DNA from: Nocardioides marmorisolisilvae
GTDB taxonomy: Bacteria > Actinomycetota > Actinomycetes > Propionibacteriales > Nocardioidaceae
Direction of reading: 5' to 3'
NCBI RefSeq assembly: GCF_003725775.1
Contig: NZ_RJSG01000002.1
Span: forward strand, 1,459,301-1,523,300
Length of the DNA: 64,000 nt
Below, in pieces: positions 45,945-49,931 of this stretch (position 1 is its first letter; each line of letters begins with the position of its first letter). The notes below the pieces were generated by a model. The model was not told the DNA's origin, ran no database searches, and worked only from the letters and a program-made list of their open reading frames with translations. The position numbers were made by a program, and so were the translations under genes.

Positions 45945-46505
45945 ATGAGCACTCCCGCCTTCTACGACGAGCTCCGGGCCCTGCGCCTCGAGCGTGTGCT
46001 CGACGCCTCCGTCGCGATCATCACGGAGGAGGGGTGGGACCGGCTGAGCATGACCAAGGTGGCCCAGCGCTCGGGTGTCCCCCGCCAGAGCCTCTACAAG
46101 GAGGTCGGCACCAAGTCCGAGCTCGGCGAGGCCGTCGTCCACCGCGAGGTCGACCGCTTCCTCGCCGGCGTACGCGACGGGCTTGCTGCCCACCCGGGTG
46201 ACACGGTCGAGGGTCTCGGCGCGGCCGCCCGGTTCGCCCTGGAGTACGGCGAGACCAACGACGTGCTGAAGGCGATCCTGCGGCCCGGTCACGATCCCGA
46301 GCTCCTGGAGCTGCTCACGGTCCGGCCCGAGGCGGTCCTGGCCCAGGCCACCCAGGCGATCGGCGAAGCCCTCGGCGACGCATCGGAGGCCATGGTCGAC
46401 ACCATGGTCCGGTTGACCATGAGCCACGTGCTGCAACCGACCGTCGGCATCGACGAGGCCGTGGACCGGATCAAGCGCACGATCCACGGCTTCATCGCTG
46501 GTTGA
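45945..46505 (+). CDS. TetR-family transcriptional regulator
   Basis: A 186-residue regulator with an N-terminal helix-turn-helix (about 12-58; LSMTKVAQRSGVPRQSLYKEVGTKSEL) and a C-terminal ligand domain. The start ATG at 45945 follows a leaderless promoter. It is convergent with the Rieske oxygenase gene, with only a 13-base gap that is filled by a short repeat. It may regulate that P450/Rieske operon or itself; no direct evidence links them. Confidence 0.87.
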   Translation: MSTPAFYDELRALRLERVLDASVAIITEEGWDRLSMTKVAQRSGVPRQSLYKEVGTKSELGEAVVHREVDRFLAGVRDGLAAHPGDTVEGLGAAARFALEYGETNDVLKAILRPGHDPELLELLTVRPEAVLAQATQAIGEALGDASEAMVDTMVRLTMSHVLQPTVGIDEAVDRIKRTIHGFIAG

Positions 46506-46518: not shown

Positions 46519-47529
46519 CTAGCGACCGCGCTCTTCCTCGATCATCGACTGCATGATCCGGCGCGCCCGCAGGGCGGCGCGGTCAGCCTTGACGTTGACG
46601 TAGCGGCGCGGCGCGGTGTCCTCGTCGAGACAGCGCTGCATGGTCTCGAGCACCGAGATGTCGCGGTCGGCCATCTCAGCGAAGACGTCGGCCAGCTGCG
46701 TGCCCACGTCGGGCGAGACCGCGTCGCCGCGCCAGGAGATCTGGACGAACACGTGCGTGGTGCCTGCCGACTCGGGGGTGAAGCCGTGGGTCCGGACCAG
46801 CTCGAGCTCGGGACCGTCGGAACCGGTGATCGTGTAGGTCTGCTTGTGCAGGCCCGGCGTCACGAACGTGCCGGTCTCCTTGCGGCCGAACGACTCTGCA
46901 CTGGTGAGCCCGGAGACCTGCGCCTCCCACGGCGCGAGCGGAGCCTTCGGCAGCTCACGCGTGTAGGACACCGAGACCTCGGACATCTCGACCTCCTCCA
47001 TCGGAGGGAGCGCCTCGATGCCCGGCGGCACCATCTCCGGGTGCATCTCGAAGACGTTGGTCAGGTCGAGGTAGTGCTCGTGCAGCAGCAGCAGGTTGGC
47101 GGCCACCGTGCGCAGCTCCCCGACGCTGCCCCATCCGTCTCCCTGGAGCCAAGGCGTCGACGGTGGAGGACGAAGCCGTTCGCCACCCGGGGTTCCGGTC
47201 CAGACCCAGATGAAGGGACCGCGCTCGACGACCGGGAAGGAACGCACCTGGGCGCCCGACGGCGGGTTGTCCTGGGACGGCACGCGCACGCAGCGGCCCG
47301 CTGCGTCGTAGGTGCAGCCGTGGTACCCGCAGACGACCAGGTCACCCTCGCGGTGGCCGGCCGACAACGGGTAGGGGCGGTGAGCGCACCGGTCCTCGAG
47401 CGCCGCCACCGAACCGTCGGAGAGGCGGAACAGCACGACGGAGGTGTCGACGATGCGTCGCGGAGTGAACCCGTCGCCGACCTCGTCGGAGGTCGCGGCG
47501 ACGTACCAGCAGTCCTGGGGGTAGCTCAT
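46519..47529 (-). CDS. Rieske non-heme iron oxygenase, large subunit (VanA-like)
   Basis: A 336-residue oxygenase. The Rieske [2Fe-2S] motif is C48-x-H50 and C67-x2-H70 (CAHRPY and CGYHGC). The C-terminal half is the catalytic iron domain; LLLHEHYLDLTNVFEMHPE probably supplies the iron-binding His residues. The family includes vanillate demethylase VanA and phthalate-type oxygenases, which need a separate FMN/[2Fe-2S] reductase. None is encoded alone here, but the upstream gene carries exactly such a module fused to a P450, and the two genes overlap by ATGA. Shared electron supply is therefore likely. The substrate is unknown; O-demethylation or hydroxylation is possible. Confidence 0.87.
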   Translation of the reverse strand: MSYPQDCWYVAATSDEVGDGFTPRRIVDTSVVLFRLSDGSVAALEDRCAHRPYPLSAGHREGDLVVCGYHGCTYDAAGRCVRVPSQDNPPSGAQVRSFPVVERGPFIWVWTGTPGGERLRPPPSTPWLQGDGWGSVGELRTVAANLLLLHEHYLDLTNVFEMHPEMVPPGIEALPPMEEVEMSEVSVSYTRELPKAPLAPWEAQVSGLTSAESFGRKETGTFVTPGLHKQTYTITGSDGPELELVRTHGFTPESAGTTHVFVQISWRGDAVSPDVGTQLADVFAEMADRDISVLETMQRCLDEDTAPRRYVNVKADRAALRARRIMQSMIEEERGR

Positions 47530-49931
47530 AGGTCCAGCACCAGCTTCTTCGACAGCGAGCGAGAGACGCAGGTCATGACGGTGTCCCCACGCTCACGCTC
47601 GGACTTGGACAGCACCGAGTCGCGATGGTCGGGTTTGCCGTCGAGCACGTCGGCCTCGCAGGTGCCGCAGATGCCCTCCATGCAGGAGCCCATCACGTCG
47701 ACGCCCGCCTTCTCGACGGCGTCGAAGATCGACATGCCCTCAGGCACGGACACGGTCACGCCCGAGCGCGAGCACTCCACCTCGAACGTGTCCAGCGCGT
47801 CCGCGGAGGCCTCGACCTTCTTGGCCGCGAACCGCTCCAGGTGCAGGCTGCCCTCGGGCCAGGCCTCGCAGTTCTCCTCGACCGCGTCCAGCAGCACGCC
47901 CGGTCCGCAGCAGTAGACCAGCGTGTCCGACCGCGGAGTCCCGAGGACCGCCGGGAGGTCGAGCAGACCCTTCTCGTCCTGGGGCCAGACCGTCACGCGG
48001 TCGTCACCCTCGAGCCGATCGAGAAACGCCATCGATGCCCGGGTCCGACCGCCGTACAGCAGGCTCCACTCGGCACCGCGCGCCTCGGCCGCCTCGATCA
48101 TCGCGATGATCGGGGTGATGCCGATGCCGCCGGCGATGAACTGGTAGCGCGGTGAGGCAACGAGCGGGAAGTGGTTGCGCGGTCCCCGCACGCGGATGGT
48201 CGAACCCTCGACGAGCTTGTCGTGGACGTGCGCCGACCCGCCGCGGCTGTTCGGGTCGCGGAGGACCCCGACCTTCCACGACCTCTCGTCTGCCGTGCTG
48301 CCGCACAGCGAGTACTGCCGCGTCAGCGAGGAGCTCAGGACGAGGTCGATGTGGGCGCCGGCAGTCCAGGACGGGAGCTGTCCGCCGGTCGGGTCGGCGA
48401 GGGTGAGCTCGACGATGCCCTCGGCGACCTCGCGGCGGGCCTCGATCCGCAGGTCGACCTCGCTCTCGGCGGTGCTCGTGACCCAGCCTTCGCGGGACGG
48501 GATGCGCGCGGTCTTCGGCGCGGCCGCCTTGCGAGGACCGGACCGTCGCTCCTCGCCGATCGGCGTGAGCGTGACCATCATCTTGGTGTAGCCGCGGACG
48601 AAGTTCGACTGCAGGTACTCCGGCTCCTCGACGACCTCGATGTCGTCGAACCGCGCCAGCAGCTCCTCCCACAGGATCCGCAGCTGCATCTCGGCCAGGC
48701 GGCTGCCCATGCAGCGGTGGGTTCCGATGCCGAACGACAGGTGGTGGCGCGCGTTCTGGCGGTCGATGATGAAGTCGTCGGGGTTCTCGAAGGTGCGCTC
48801 GTCTCGGTTGGCCGAGGCGTACCACATCACGACCTTGTCGCCCTTGCGGATGAACTGGCCGTTCAGCACCGTGTCCTGCGTGGCGATGCGGCGCATGTGG
48901 GCCAGGGGCGTCTGCCAGCGGATGATCTCGTGGACCATCTTCGTCACGAGCCCGTGGTCCGCCTTGAGCCGGTCGAACTGGTCCGGGAACTGGTTGAGCG
49001 CGTACACGCCGCCCGACATCGAGTTGCGGGTGGTGTCGTTGCCGCCGACGACGAGCAGGATCAGGTTGCCGAGGAACTCCATCGGGCGGTTGATCAGGTC
49101 CTTGGTGTCCTCGGACATCTGCATCAGGGTGATCAGGTCGTAGCCGGGCTTCTCGCCTGCAGCGCGGCGGGCTGCCTTGTCGTGCCACAGGTCACTGAAG
49201 CTCTTCGCCATGTCGCCGATGCCCCGGTACATCTCGTCCAGGTCGTTCGAGCCGCCGGTGCCCGATGCGCTGCCGGCTGCGAGGTCGGTCCAGTAGACGA
49301 GCTTGCGGCGCTCCTCGTACGGGAAGTCGAGCAGGGTGGCGAGCATCCGCGAGGTCAGCTCGACGCTGACGTGGTCGACCCAGTCGAACGGCTCGTGCAC
49401 CGGAAGGTCGTCCAGCACCTCCTGCACGCGGGAGCGGATCAGCCCCTCCATCTCCTCGAGGTTCTGCGGAGCGACGACACCCTGGACCGAGGCGCGCTGC
49501 TGGTCGTGGCGCGGCGGGTCCATGGCGATGAACATCTCGACGTCCAGACCCTCCGGCGGGCTGCCGATCACGATCTGCGGCTCCGCGGAGAACCGCTCGA
49601 AGTCCTTGTCGACGGTGATGATGTCGTCGTACCGGGTGACCGACCAGAACGGGCCGAAGGCACTGTTGGCCTGGAAGTGCACCGGCGCTTCGTCCCGCAG
49701 CCGTTTGAAGTAGGAGTGCCACTGACCTTGGCCGTAGAGGAACGGGTTGCTCAGGTCGATGTCGGTCAGCTCGACCTGGTCGACGTCAGGGATCTGCTCC
49801 TCGACGAAGACCGGCTGGTTGCTGCCGAGCACCAGCCTCTTGGCCTTCTGGAACAGGTGCAGCCCTTGGACCTGGCGCTGCATCGGGATCGTCGCCTGCG
49901 CCTTGGTGATGACTTGGTCGAGAACGCTCAT
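47526..49931 (-). CDS. Natural fusion: CYP153-like P450 with phthalate-dioxygenase-reductase module
   Basis: An 801-residue self-sufficient P450. Residues 1-455 are a cytochrome P450 with I-helix GGNDTT (296-301), ExxR in the EIIRW region (335-339) and the heme motif FGIGTHRCMG with Cys407. The wording resembles CYP153 alkane/fatty acid terminal hydroxylases (FGPFWSVTRYDDI, MFIAMDPPRHD, WQTPLAHMRR). A basic linker (about 460-490) leads to a reductase with RQYSL (flavin, 539), GGIGITP (NAD, 601-607) and a plant-type [2Fe-2S] site Cys750, 755, 758, 788. CYP116B enzymes have this architecture; with a CYP153-like head it is unusual. It starts a two-gene operon with a Rieske oxygenase. The probable reaction is terminal hydroxylation of an alkyl or acyl chain. 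Confidence 0.88.
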   Translation of the reverse strand: MSVLDQVITKAQATIPMQRQVQGLHLFQKAKRLVLGSNQPVFVEEQIPDVDQVELTDIDLSNPFLYGQGQWHSYFKRLRDEAPVHFQANSAFGPFWSVTRYDDIITVDKDFERFSAEPQIVIGSPPEGLDVEMFIAMDPPRHDQQRASVQGVVAPQNLEEMEGLIRSRVQEVLDDLPVHEPFDWVDHVSVELTSRMLATLLDFPYEERRKLVYWTDLAAGSASGTGGSNDLDEMYRGIGDMAKSFSDLWHDKAARRAAGEKPGYDLITLMQMSEDTKDLINRPMEFLGNLILLVVGGNDTTRNSMSGGVYALNQFPDQFDRLKADHGLVTKMVHEIIRWQTPLAHMRRIATQDTVLNGQFIRKGDKVVMWYASANRDERTFENPDDFIIDRQNARHHLSFGIGTHRCMGSRLAEMQLRILWEELLARFDDIEVVEEPEYLQSNFVRGYTKMMVTLTPIGEERRSGPRKAAAPKTARIPSREGWVTSTAESEVDLRIEARREVAEGIVELTLADPTGGQLPSWTAGAHIDLVLSSSLTRQYSLCGSTADERSWKVGVLRDPNSRGGSAHVHDKLVEGSTIRVRGPRNHFPLVASPRYQFIAGGIGITPIIAMIEAAEARGAEWSLLYGGRTRASMAFLDRLEGDDRVTVWPQDEKGLLDLPAVLGTPRSDTLVYCCGPGVLLDAVEENCEAWPEGSLHLERFAAKKVEASADALDTFEVECSRSGVTVSVPEGMSIFDAVEKAGVDVMGSCMEGICGTCEADVLDGKPDHRDSVLSKSERERGDTVMTCVSRSLSKKLVLDL

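Follow-up and report, generated by a model that had tools for sequence, protein, structure and literature searches.

How did a CYP153-type cytochrome P450 (P450) come to be joined to a reductase in a single polypeptide, and which oxygenases would that reductase serve? These questions are raised by a gene of Nocardioides marmorisolisilvae that lies in a stretch of 64,000 nucleotides (contig NZ_RJSG01000002.1, positions 1,459,301 to 1,523,300), hereafter called the window, and that is followed by a gene for a Rieske oxygenase. A first-pass annotation, made without database searches, had described its product as a CYP153-like P450 fused to a phthalate dioxygenase reductase (PDR)-like module, with no mention of the overlapping Rieske gene. 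Taking all the evidence together, we consider it likely that the gene encodes a self-sufficient CYP153A fusion built on the reductase of a Rieske operon, a reductase that may still feed the Rieske oxygenase in trans.

An intact fusion of the CYP153A subfamily

The interval proposed at first pass (47526..49931) holds, and the strand, which had not been stated, is the minus strand: a single open reading frame (ORF) of 801 aa runs from the ATG at 49931 to the TGA at 47526-47528, and the plus-strand reading of the same interval is interrupted by stops. Pfam searches of the 801-aa protein returned p450 (best stretch 293-429), NAD_binding_1 (598-641) and Fer2 (721-791). In a sequence search of the Protein Data Bank (PDB), residues 6-457 matched 5fyf (E 1.6e-213), which we take to be CYP153A33, and the next matches were entries deposited as CYP153. 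Residues 492-801 matched phthalate dioxygenase reductase 2pia (E 2e-55), bearing out the PDR-like module, and 6kbh (CYP116B46) could be aligned to residues 77-801. All three architectural parts of class VII, namely the P450, the flavin/NAD(P)H part and the [2Fe-2S] cluster with its PFOR module, are present in one chain. The four cluster cysteines pointed out at first pass (C750, C755, C758 and C788) are all there and, like C407 of the P450 part, they were invariant in alignment A1, which has 25 rows (24 CYP153A fusions and one other P450 fusion, L064). By homology, the flavin is predicted to be flavin mononucleotide.

Full-length relatives were found in 23 named records at 71-87% identity, and one relative is annotated as a single coding sequence, 'cytochrome P450/oxidoreductase', in a RefSeq record of PLSDB. 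A frameshift or an assembly artefact was therefore ruled out. The P450 and reductase parts gave omega values of 0.03-0.22 (12 pairs), indicating purifying selection on both.

In P450 nomenclature, members of a family share more than 40% identity, and members of a subfamily more than 55%, with named members. The P450 part lies above both values for CYP153A, with 68.7% identity to 5fyf and 57.0% to 3rwl (deposited as CYP153A7), and it shares 49.9% with 5h1z (CYP153D17). With 29.5% identity to 6kbh, it falls below the family value for CYP116, from which it was also separated in the tree. The first-pass annotation had assigned the P450 to CYP153 and named a phylogeny of this domain as a check. In a mixed 36-row tree with CYP116B and other P450s, all 14 CYP153 rows formed one clade (100/100) apart from CYP116B, so that the assignment stands, with subfamily A indicated by identity and by the tree. 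Moreover, P126, S223, G296 and L343 of the fusion, as read off the alignment, are identical to P136, S233, G307 and L354 of CYP153A33, positions at which mutation alters enzyme behaviour according to literature excerpts.

We then compared 43 distinct fusions in trees, which omit loci repeating an included record, duplicate sequences and L109, whose frame is split. P450 matches below 44% identity or 350 residues were also excluded from a CYP153 tree of 76 rows, in which the 43 fused rows formed one clade (Shimodaira-Hasegawa-like approximate likelihood ratio test, SH-aLRT, 99) nested among unfused CYP153A. Its sister was the unfused CYP153A of Skermania (85% identical), followed by those of three further genomes. 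Hence, the CYP153A-reductase fusion arose once, within unfused CYP153A and independently of CYP116B. The position of Solimonas fusions inside an otherwise actinobacterial clade points to horizontal transfer.

Judging from its sequence, the CYP153A fusion is very probably a self-sufficient terminal hydroxylase. By analogy with CYP116B, a hydride from NAD(P)H would reach the flavin, which would release single electrons through the C-terminal [2Fe-2S] cluster to the heme, all within one chain, and the heme would hydroxylate the terminal (omega) carbon of an alkane or a fatty acid.

Origin of the reductase module

The reductase parts of the 43 fusions likewise formed one clade in three trees (100/99, 100/96 and, in a quick tree of 106 rows, 99). 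The later reductase trees leave out five divergent stand-alone reductases (L023, L024, L025, L026 and L036). The fused reductase is more similar to that of CYP116B46 (47.8%) than to the PDR 2pia (38.3%), and the domain order is that of CYP116B, as expected if the module had been taken from CYP116B by recombination, in other words by a heme-domain swap within one self-sufficient family. Such a swap is very improbable, however, as two CYP116B reductases fell outside a larger group composed of the fused and stand-alone reductases in two trees (97/88 and 96/84) and stand-alone reductases reach 66% identity to the fused one. A CYP116B origin of either the heme or the reductase part was rejected on the basis of the heme-domain identity and the trees of both parts.

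In the tree with 100/96 support, the sister of the fused clade (99/92) consisted of 15 stand-alone reductases of Gordonia's family, and a Rieske gene came immediately after each of them. These reductases had been retrieved through their Rieske genes, so that their neighbours alone prove nothing, and we therefore ran a control by reductase similarity alone in 351 genomes of that family. Up to six candidates were scored per genome, and 20 further matches among those listed were then added. Among the matches listed, a related Rieske gene came directly after each of the 15 best-scoring stand-alone reductases; 14 of these reductases were already known from the Rieske-led set and one was new (L249). 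In the 106-row quick tree, the group that contained the fused clade (SH-aLRT 94) held 19 stand-alone reductases among the matches listed, 17 of which had a Rieske gene directly behind them. The claim that a Rieske gene accompanies all close stand-alone reductases was accordingly dropped in favour of these two counts.

In seven of the 19 stand-alone loci, the reductase gene is immediately preceded by that of a separate P450 and immediately followed by a Rieske gene, the same order as in the fusion locus (Table 1). The one P450 from these operons that we searched against structures was nearest to CYP125/CYP124 types and not to CYP153. A reductase-Rieske pair is also present, at another place, in each of the four genomes whose unfused CYP153A is nearest to the fusion (G338, G378, G368 and G339). 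Both ingredients of the fusion thus occur together in a single cell, although the genomes may be kin and not four independent cases. An ancestry of the fused reductase in a lineage of Rieske operons is well supported by the trees. As the nearest stand-alone reductases are mostly members of such operons, CYP153A was probably joined onto the reductase of a (P450-)reductase-Rieske operon. This would have been a single event, in which a CYP153A gene was fused to a reductase gene whose lineage mostly serves Rieske oxygenase operons, some of them already with a separate P450.

Other arrangements were seen around related reductases. Among the P450-reductase-Rieske operons, those of L175 and L178 are followed by a GMC-oxidoreductase-like ORF, and those of L178 and L181 are preceded by a CoA-ligase-like ORF (both labels by reading only). 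Another natural group of P450-PDR fusions (L064:6001-8193 and L113-L117) has heme domains 27-30% identical to that of the CYP153A fusion and without a close PDB family (best for L064, CYP130 at 146 bits); its reductases are closer to the CYP153A-fusion set than to CYP116B. In nine further loci of Gordonia's family (L237-L239, L241-L243, L245, L248 and L251), a distant Rieske relative, 28-30% identical to the fusion-linked protein of the window, is located before and not after the reductase gene. L111 (G151) looked at first like another fusion with a Rieske gene behind it, but was rejected because separate adjacent ORFs encode its P450 and reductase. L111 and L130-L135 (Nocardioidaceae) have Rieske-like genes directly behind stand-alone PDR-type reductases, and all seven proteins have lost at least one, and up to three, of the four cluster ligands. 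Several of these loci adjoin a P450 (of CYP125-like type in both cases searched), and several are near glutamine-synthetase-like and acetoacetate-decarboxylase-like ORFs (the latter label by reading only).

The coupled Rieske gene

A VanA_C-type Rieske gene comes next after 24 of the 43 distinct fusions. In all 24 loci, the TGA of the fusion overlaps the start of the Rieske frame by four bases, as ATGA in 22 and GTGA in two. The frame stays open from the overlap into the Rieske gene in 23 of them, the exception being L058 (Gordonia spumicola), with an early in-frame stop. The annotated coordinates of a Tsukamurella record give the same overlap (245611-245614). We also searched genomes for the Rieske gene. 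Of 24 named genomes, 16 contain it at 72% identity or more, and Skermania, whose CYP153A is unfused, has a 54% relative. The seven named genomes whose fusion has no Rieske gene gave no Rieske match at E 1e-20. In 294 Nocardioidaceae genomes, all nine near-full-length matches at 82% or more, including that of the window itself, were directly behind a fusion, as were all 11 matches at 76% or more in the 351 genomes of Gordonia's family. The exception to this linkage is a lone 79% fragment (L174:4453-4827, genome G302) in a genome without a fusion match, which is probably a relic of the fusion-Rieske operon.

In the Rieske tree, which omits L058 because of its in-frame stop as well as L249 and L250 (Rieske genes of the last control), the 23 fusion-linked proteins formed one clade (100/99), sister (99/96) to the proteins of 11 reductase-Rieske operons. 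The reductase data accept this topology (approximately unbiased test, p-AU 0.46). The fusion-linked Rieske gene is under purifying selection, with omega values of 0.09-0.20 in seven pairs. From these sequence comparisons, the reductase and the Rieske gene were most likely inherited together, and the Rieske gene was later lost in several lineages.

As in VanA-type Rieske proteins, the 336-aa protein of the window has the VanA_C domain and all four cluster ligands (C48, H50, C67 and H70), and the motif CxH...CxxH occurs in all 23 fusion-linked rows. At the mononuclear iron site, D155, H163 and D290 are present, Asn158 takes the place of the usual first iron His, and His152 is found three residues before Asp155, where DdmC has Asn. 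In the resulting pattern HxxDxxNxxxxH (residues 152-163, alignment A2), His and Asn are apparently swapped. At the position of the first iron His, the 11 closest operon relatives have Asn or Asp, L185, L186 and L188 have Tyr, and L187 has His. With intact cluster ligands and purifying selection, the protein is probably functional in some way.

One reductase for two oxygenases?

Given the Rieske-operon ancestry, and as we saw no second reductase encoded by the neighbouring ORFs, it is probable that the fused reductase feeds the Rieske oxygenase: it would still pass electrons in trans to a translationally coupled partner. Taken by itself, the claim that it serves the neighbouring oxygenase in addition to its own heme is, in our estimate, evenly poised. 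A more elaborate proposal falls a little short of an even chance. Here, the CYP153A-attached reductase would be an electron hub that also reduces the Rieske oxygenase with its rearranged iron site, both oxygenases would act sequentially on one substrate, and the arrangement would descend from P450-reductase-Rieske operons in which one reductase served both.

Several findings weigh against parts of this account. Concerning its history, L234 and L235, the two remaining reductases among the 19 nearest, adjoin a P450 and have no Rieske gene, and with both included the exact sister of the fused clade is left unsettled. The Rieske data reject the 15 operons as one clade, the grouping seen in the reductase tree (p-AU 0.005); the rejected detail is the placement of the remaining four reductase-Rieske pairs with the other 11. 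The Rieske stem is long (0.41 vs 0.095 for the reductase). As the earliest branches of the reductase tree have no Rieske gene, one later gain of this gene may explain its distribution instead of losses. Concerning function, the Rieske gene is missing behind 19 of the 43 distinct fusions, and the fusion therefore works without it. Canonical Rieske oxygenases hold their iron through a 2-His-1-carboxylate motif, DxxHxxxxH, which is not found here; all 23 fusion-linked rows have Asn in place of its first His, so the Rieske protein may be altered in chemistry or inactive. Four weaker PDR-type reductase relatives exist in the source genome (best E 7e-23 and 1e-18) and could serve the Rieske oxygenase; the idea that the fused reductase is the only one of its type in the genome was thus rejected. 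The proposed substrate class, alkanes or fatty acids, is predicted by homology. No alkane pathway gene was conserved around the fusion when flanking ORFs were clustered over 25 loci (24 named and the window), and an alkane-degradation gene cluster was rejected on this ground.

The missing iron His, the other reductases of the genome, the Rieske-less fusions and the two stand-alone reductases next to a P450 would all fit a plain self-sufficient CYP153A whose Rieske neighbour is merely co-expressed, being fed by another reductase or no longer an active oxygenase. This is a plausible alternative, if not the favoured one. It has to contend with overlapping starts in every locus that has the Rieske gene, with purifying selection on that gene, with the mostly Rieske-operon origin of the nearest stand-alone reductases, and with the observation that, in the genomes searched, every Rieske match at 72% identity or more, one fragment excepted, was located directly behind a fusion. 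At the other extreme, the ancestry of the reductase might suggest that it now works mainly for the Rieske oxygenase, with the P450 part as a regulatory or structural appendage. We give this hardly any credence, since heme, I-helix and active-site residues are conserved, fusions without a Rieske gene persist, and evolution is slower in the P450 than in the reductase. The median ratio of reductase to P450 distance was 1.41 with the Rieske gene (258 pairs) and 1.89 without it (164 pairs); we gave the difference between these two medians little weight, as kinship was not corrected for in the ratios and a single clade of the reductase tree holds 14 of the 19 Rieske-less rows. Our favoured reading is a self-sufficient fusion whose reductase may still feed the Rieske oxygenase.

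Gene neighbourhood and distribution

Table 1. Features of the fusion locus (positions in the window) and related unfused operons.
Feature	Position	Strand	Basis or remark
CYP153A-PDR fusion gene, 801 aa	47526..49931	-	Pfam, PDB sequence search, alignment A1
CYP153A heme domain, residues 1-455: heme Cys407, ExxR E335-R338, I-helix GGNDTT 296-301	48567..49931	-	
Linker, about residues 456-489, Pro/Arg/Ala-rich, length varies among relatives	48465..48566	-	Alignment A1; boundaries approximate
PDR-type reductase module, about residues 490-801: RQYS 538-541 (flavin), GGIGITP 601-607 (NAD(P)H)	47529..48464	-	
C-terminal [2Fe-2S] ferredoxin of the PDR-type module: Cys750, 755, 758, 788	within 47529..48464	-	
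ATGA overlap, fusion stop and Rieske start sharing four bases	47526..47529	-	
VanA_C-type Rieske oxygenase, 336 aa	46519..47529	-	Pfam PF00355 and PF19112
TetR-like regulator, convergent	45945..46505	+	Weak NCBIfam matches
Unfused P450-reductase-Rieske operons, Gordonia's family	L175-L179, L181, L184		Genes closely spaced or overlapping

The only neighbours common to most genera in the 25 loci were the Rieske and TetR genes, others being limited to subsets of at most nine loci; the larger flanking-ORF clusters were frame shadows of the fusion and Rieske genes. A TetR-like gene also adjoins the fusion, or its Rieske gene, in a number of relatives, and by its similarity would have a regulatory role.

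The relatives from named records belong to Nocardioides, a Nocardioidaceae metagenome-assembled genome, Marmoricola, Tsukamurella, Gordonia, Williamsia, Rhodococcus, Actinomycetospora and two Solimonas (Gammaproteobacteria). The fusion was found in 13 of the 294 Nocardioidaceae genomes, including the source genome, and in 26 of the 351 genomes of the family of Gordonia malaquae; these counts and that of the named records overlap, some genomes being counted more than once. In one of the 13 (G159, locus L109), the frame is broken between the domains, the P450 and reductase parts not sharing a reading frame, and TetR was matched only in part. Another locus (H1/L201, NZ_LR134451.1) is listed as a plasmid, yet a class 1b ribonucleotide reductase and other chromosome-like genes surround the fusion. 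The record may be part of a chromosome under a wrong label, and we do not claim a plasmid location for the fusion.

Comparison with known systems

The first-pass annotation was aware only of engineered CYP153 fusions and left it to be checked whether natural ones had been reported, which they have. A passage in PMC8918992 credits Nie et al. 2014 with three natural CYP153s, all from Gordonia, that have an N-terminal CYP, a ferredoxin-reductase and a C-terminal ferredoxin; the hosts it gives include Gordonia polyisoprenivorans VH2 and G. araii NBRC 100433, and it adds that BLAST points to many further such CYPs. The CYP153-reductase-ferredoxin architecture is thus not new. The parts for which we found no earlier report are the origin of the reductase and the coupled Rieske partner: our search of the open-access literature, with subscription papers mostly outside its scope, returned neither a characterised natural CYP153 fusion nor a CYP153-Rieske operon.

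CYP153A omega-hydroxylases are wanted biocatalysts, and incomplete coupling is reported for artificial fusions: according to passages of PMC3815936, an engineered CYP153A with the CYP116B3-PFOR module showed a coupling of 32% for n-octane and 41% for dodecanoic acid and left octanoic acid unconverted. The natural CYP153A-PFOR proteins offer 43 distinct examples with a reductase lineage unused in artificial constructs. The ancestry of their reductase may be a concrete case of a self-sufficient P450 formed by landing on the operon reductase of another oxygenase, and the fusion-Rieske locus lets one ask whether one reductase serves both a heme and a non-heme oxygenase.

Among known systems, the Gordonia CYP153 fusions share the layout of N-terminal CYP153, ferredoxin-reductase and C-terminal ferredoxin. 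They are survey finds, likened here by description, and the passage of PMC8918992 on them mentions neither a Rieske gene nor their origin. The class VII enzymes of CYP116B (P450 RhF, CYP116B46) have the same order of heme, flavin/NAD and [2Fe-2S] parts, the same PFOR type and about 48% reductase identity (to CYP116B46), but their distant heme domain and separate reductase branches indicate an independent fusion. The CYP153A hydroxylases (5fyf, CYP153A7) resemble the fusion in their heme domain (57-69% identity), with the four key active-site positions kept, and differ in using a separate ferredoxin and reductase (passages of PMC3815936 and PMC3604635). Engineered CYP153A-PFOR proteins (RhFRed or CYP116B3) have the same layout, except that their reductase comes from CYP116B and that of the natural fusion from another lineage. 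Finally, the two-component Rieske oxygenases of the vanillate demethylase and phthalate dioxygenase type also combine a PDR-type reductase with an adjacent VanA_C-type oxygenase, whereas in the fusion locus the reductase is fused to a P450 and the first iron His of the oxygenase is Asn.

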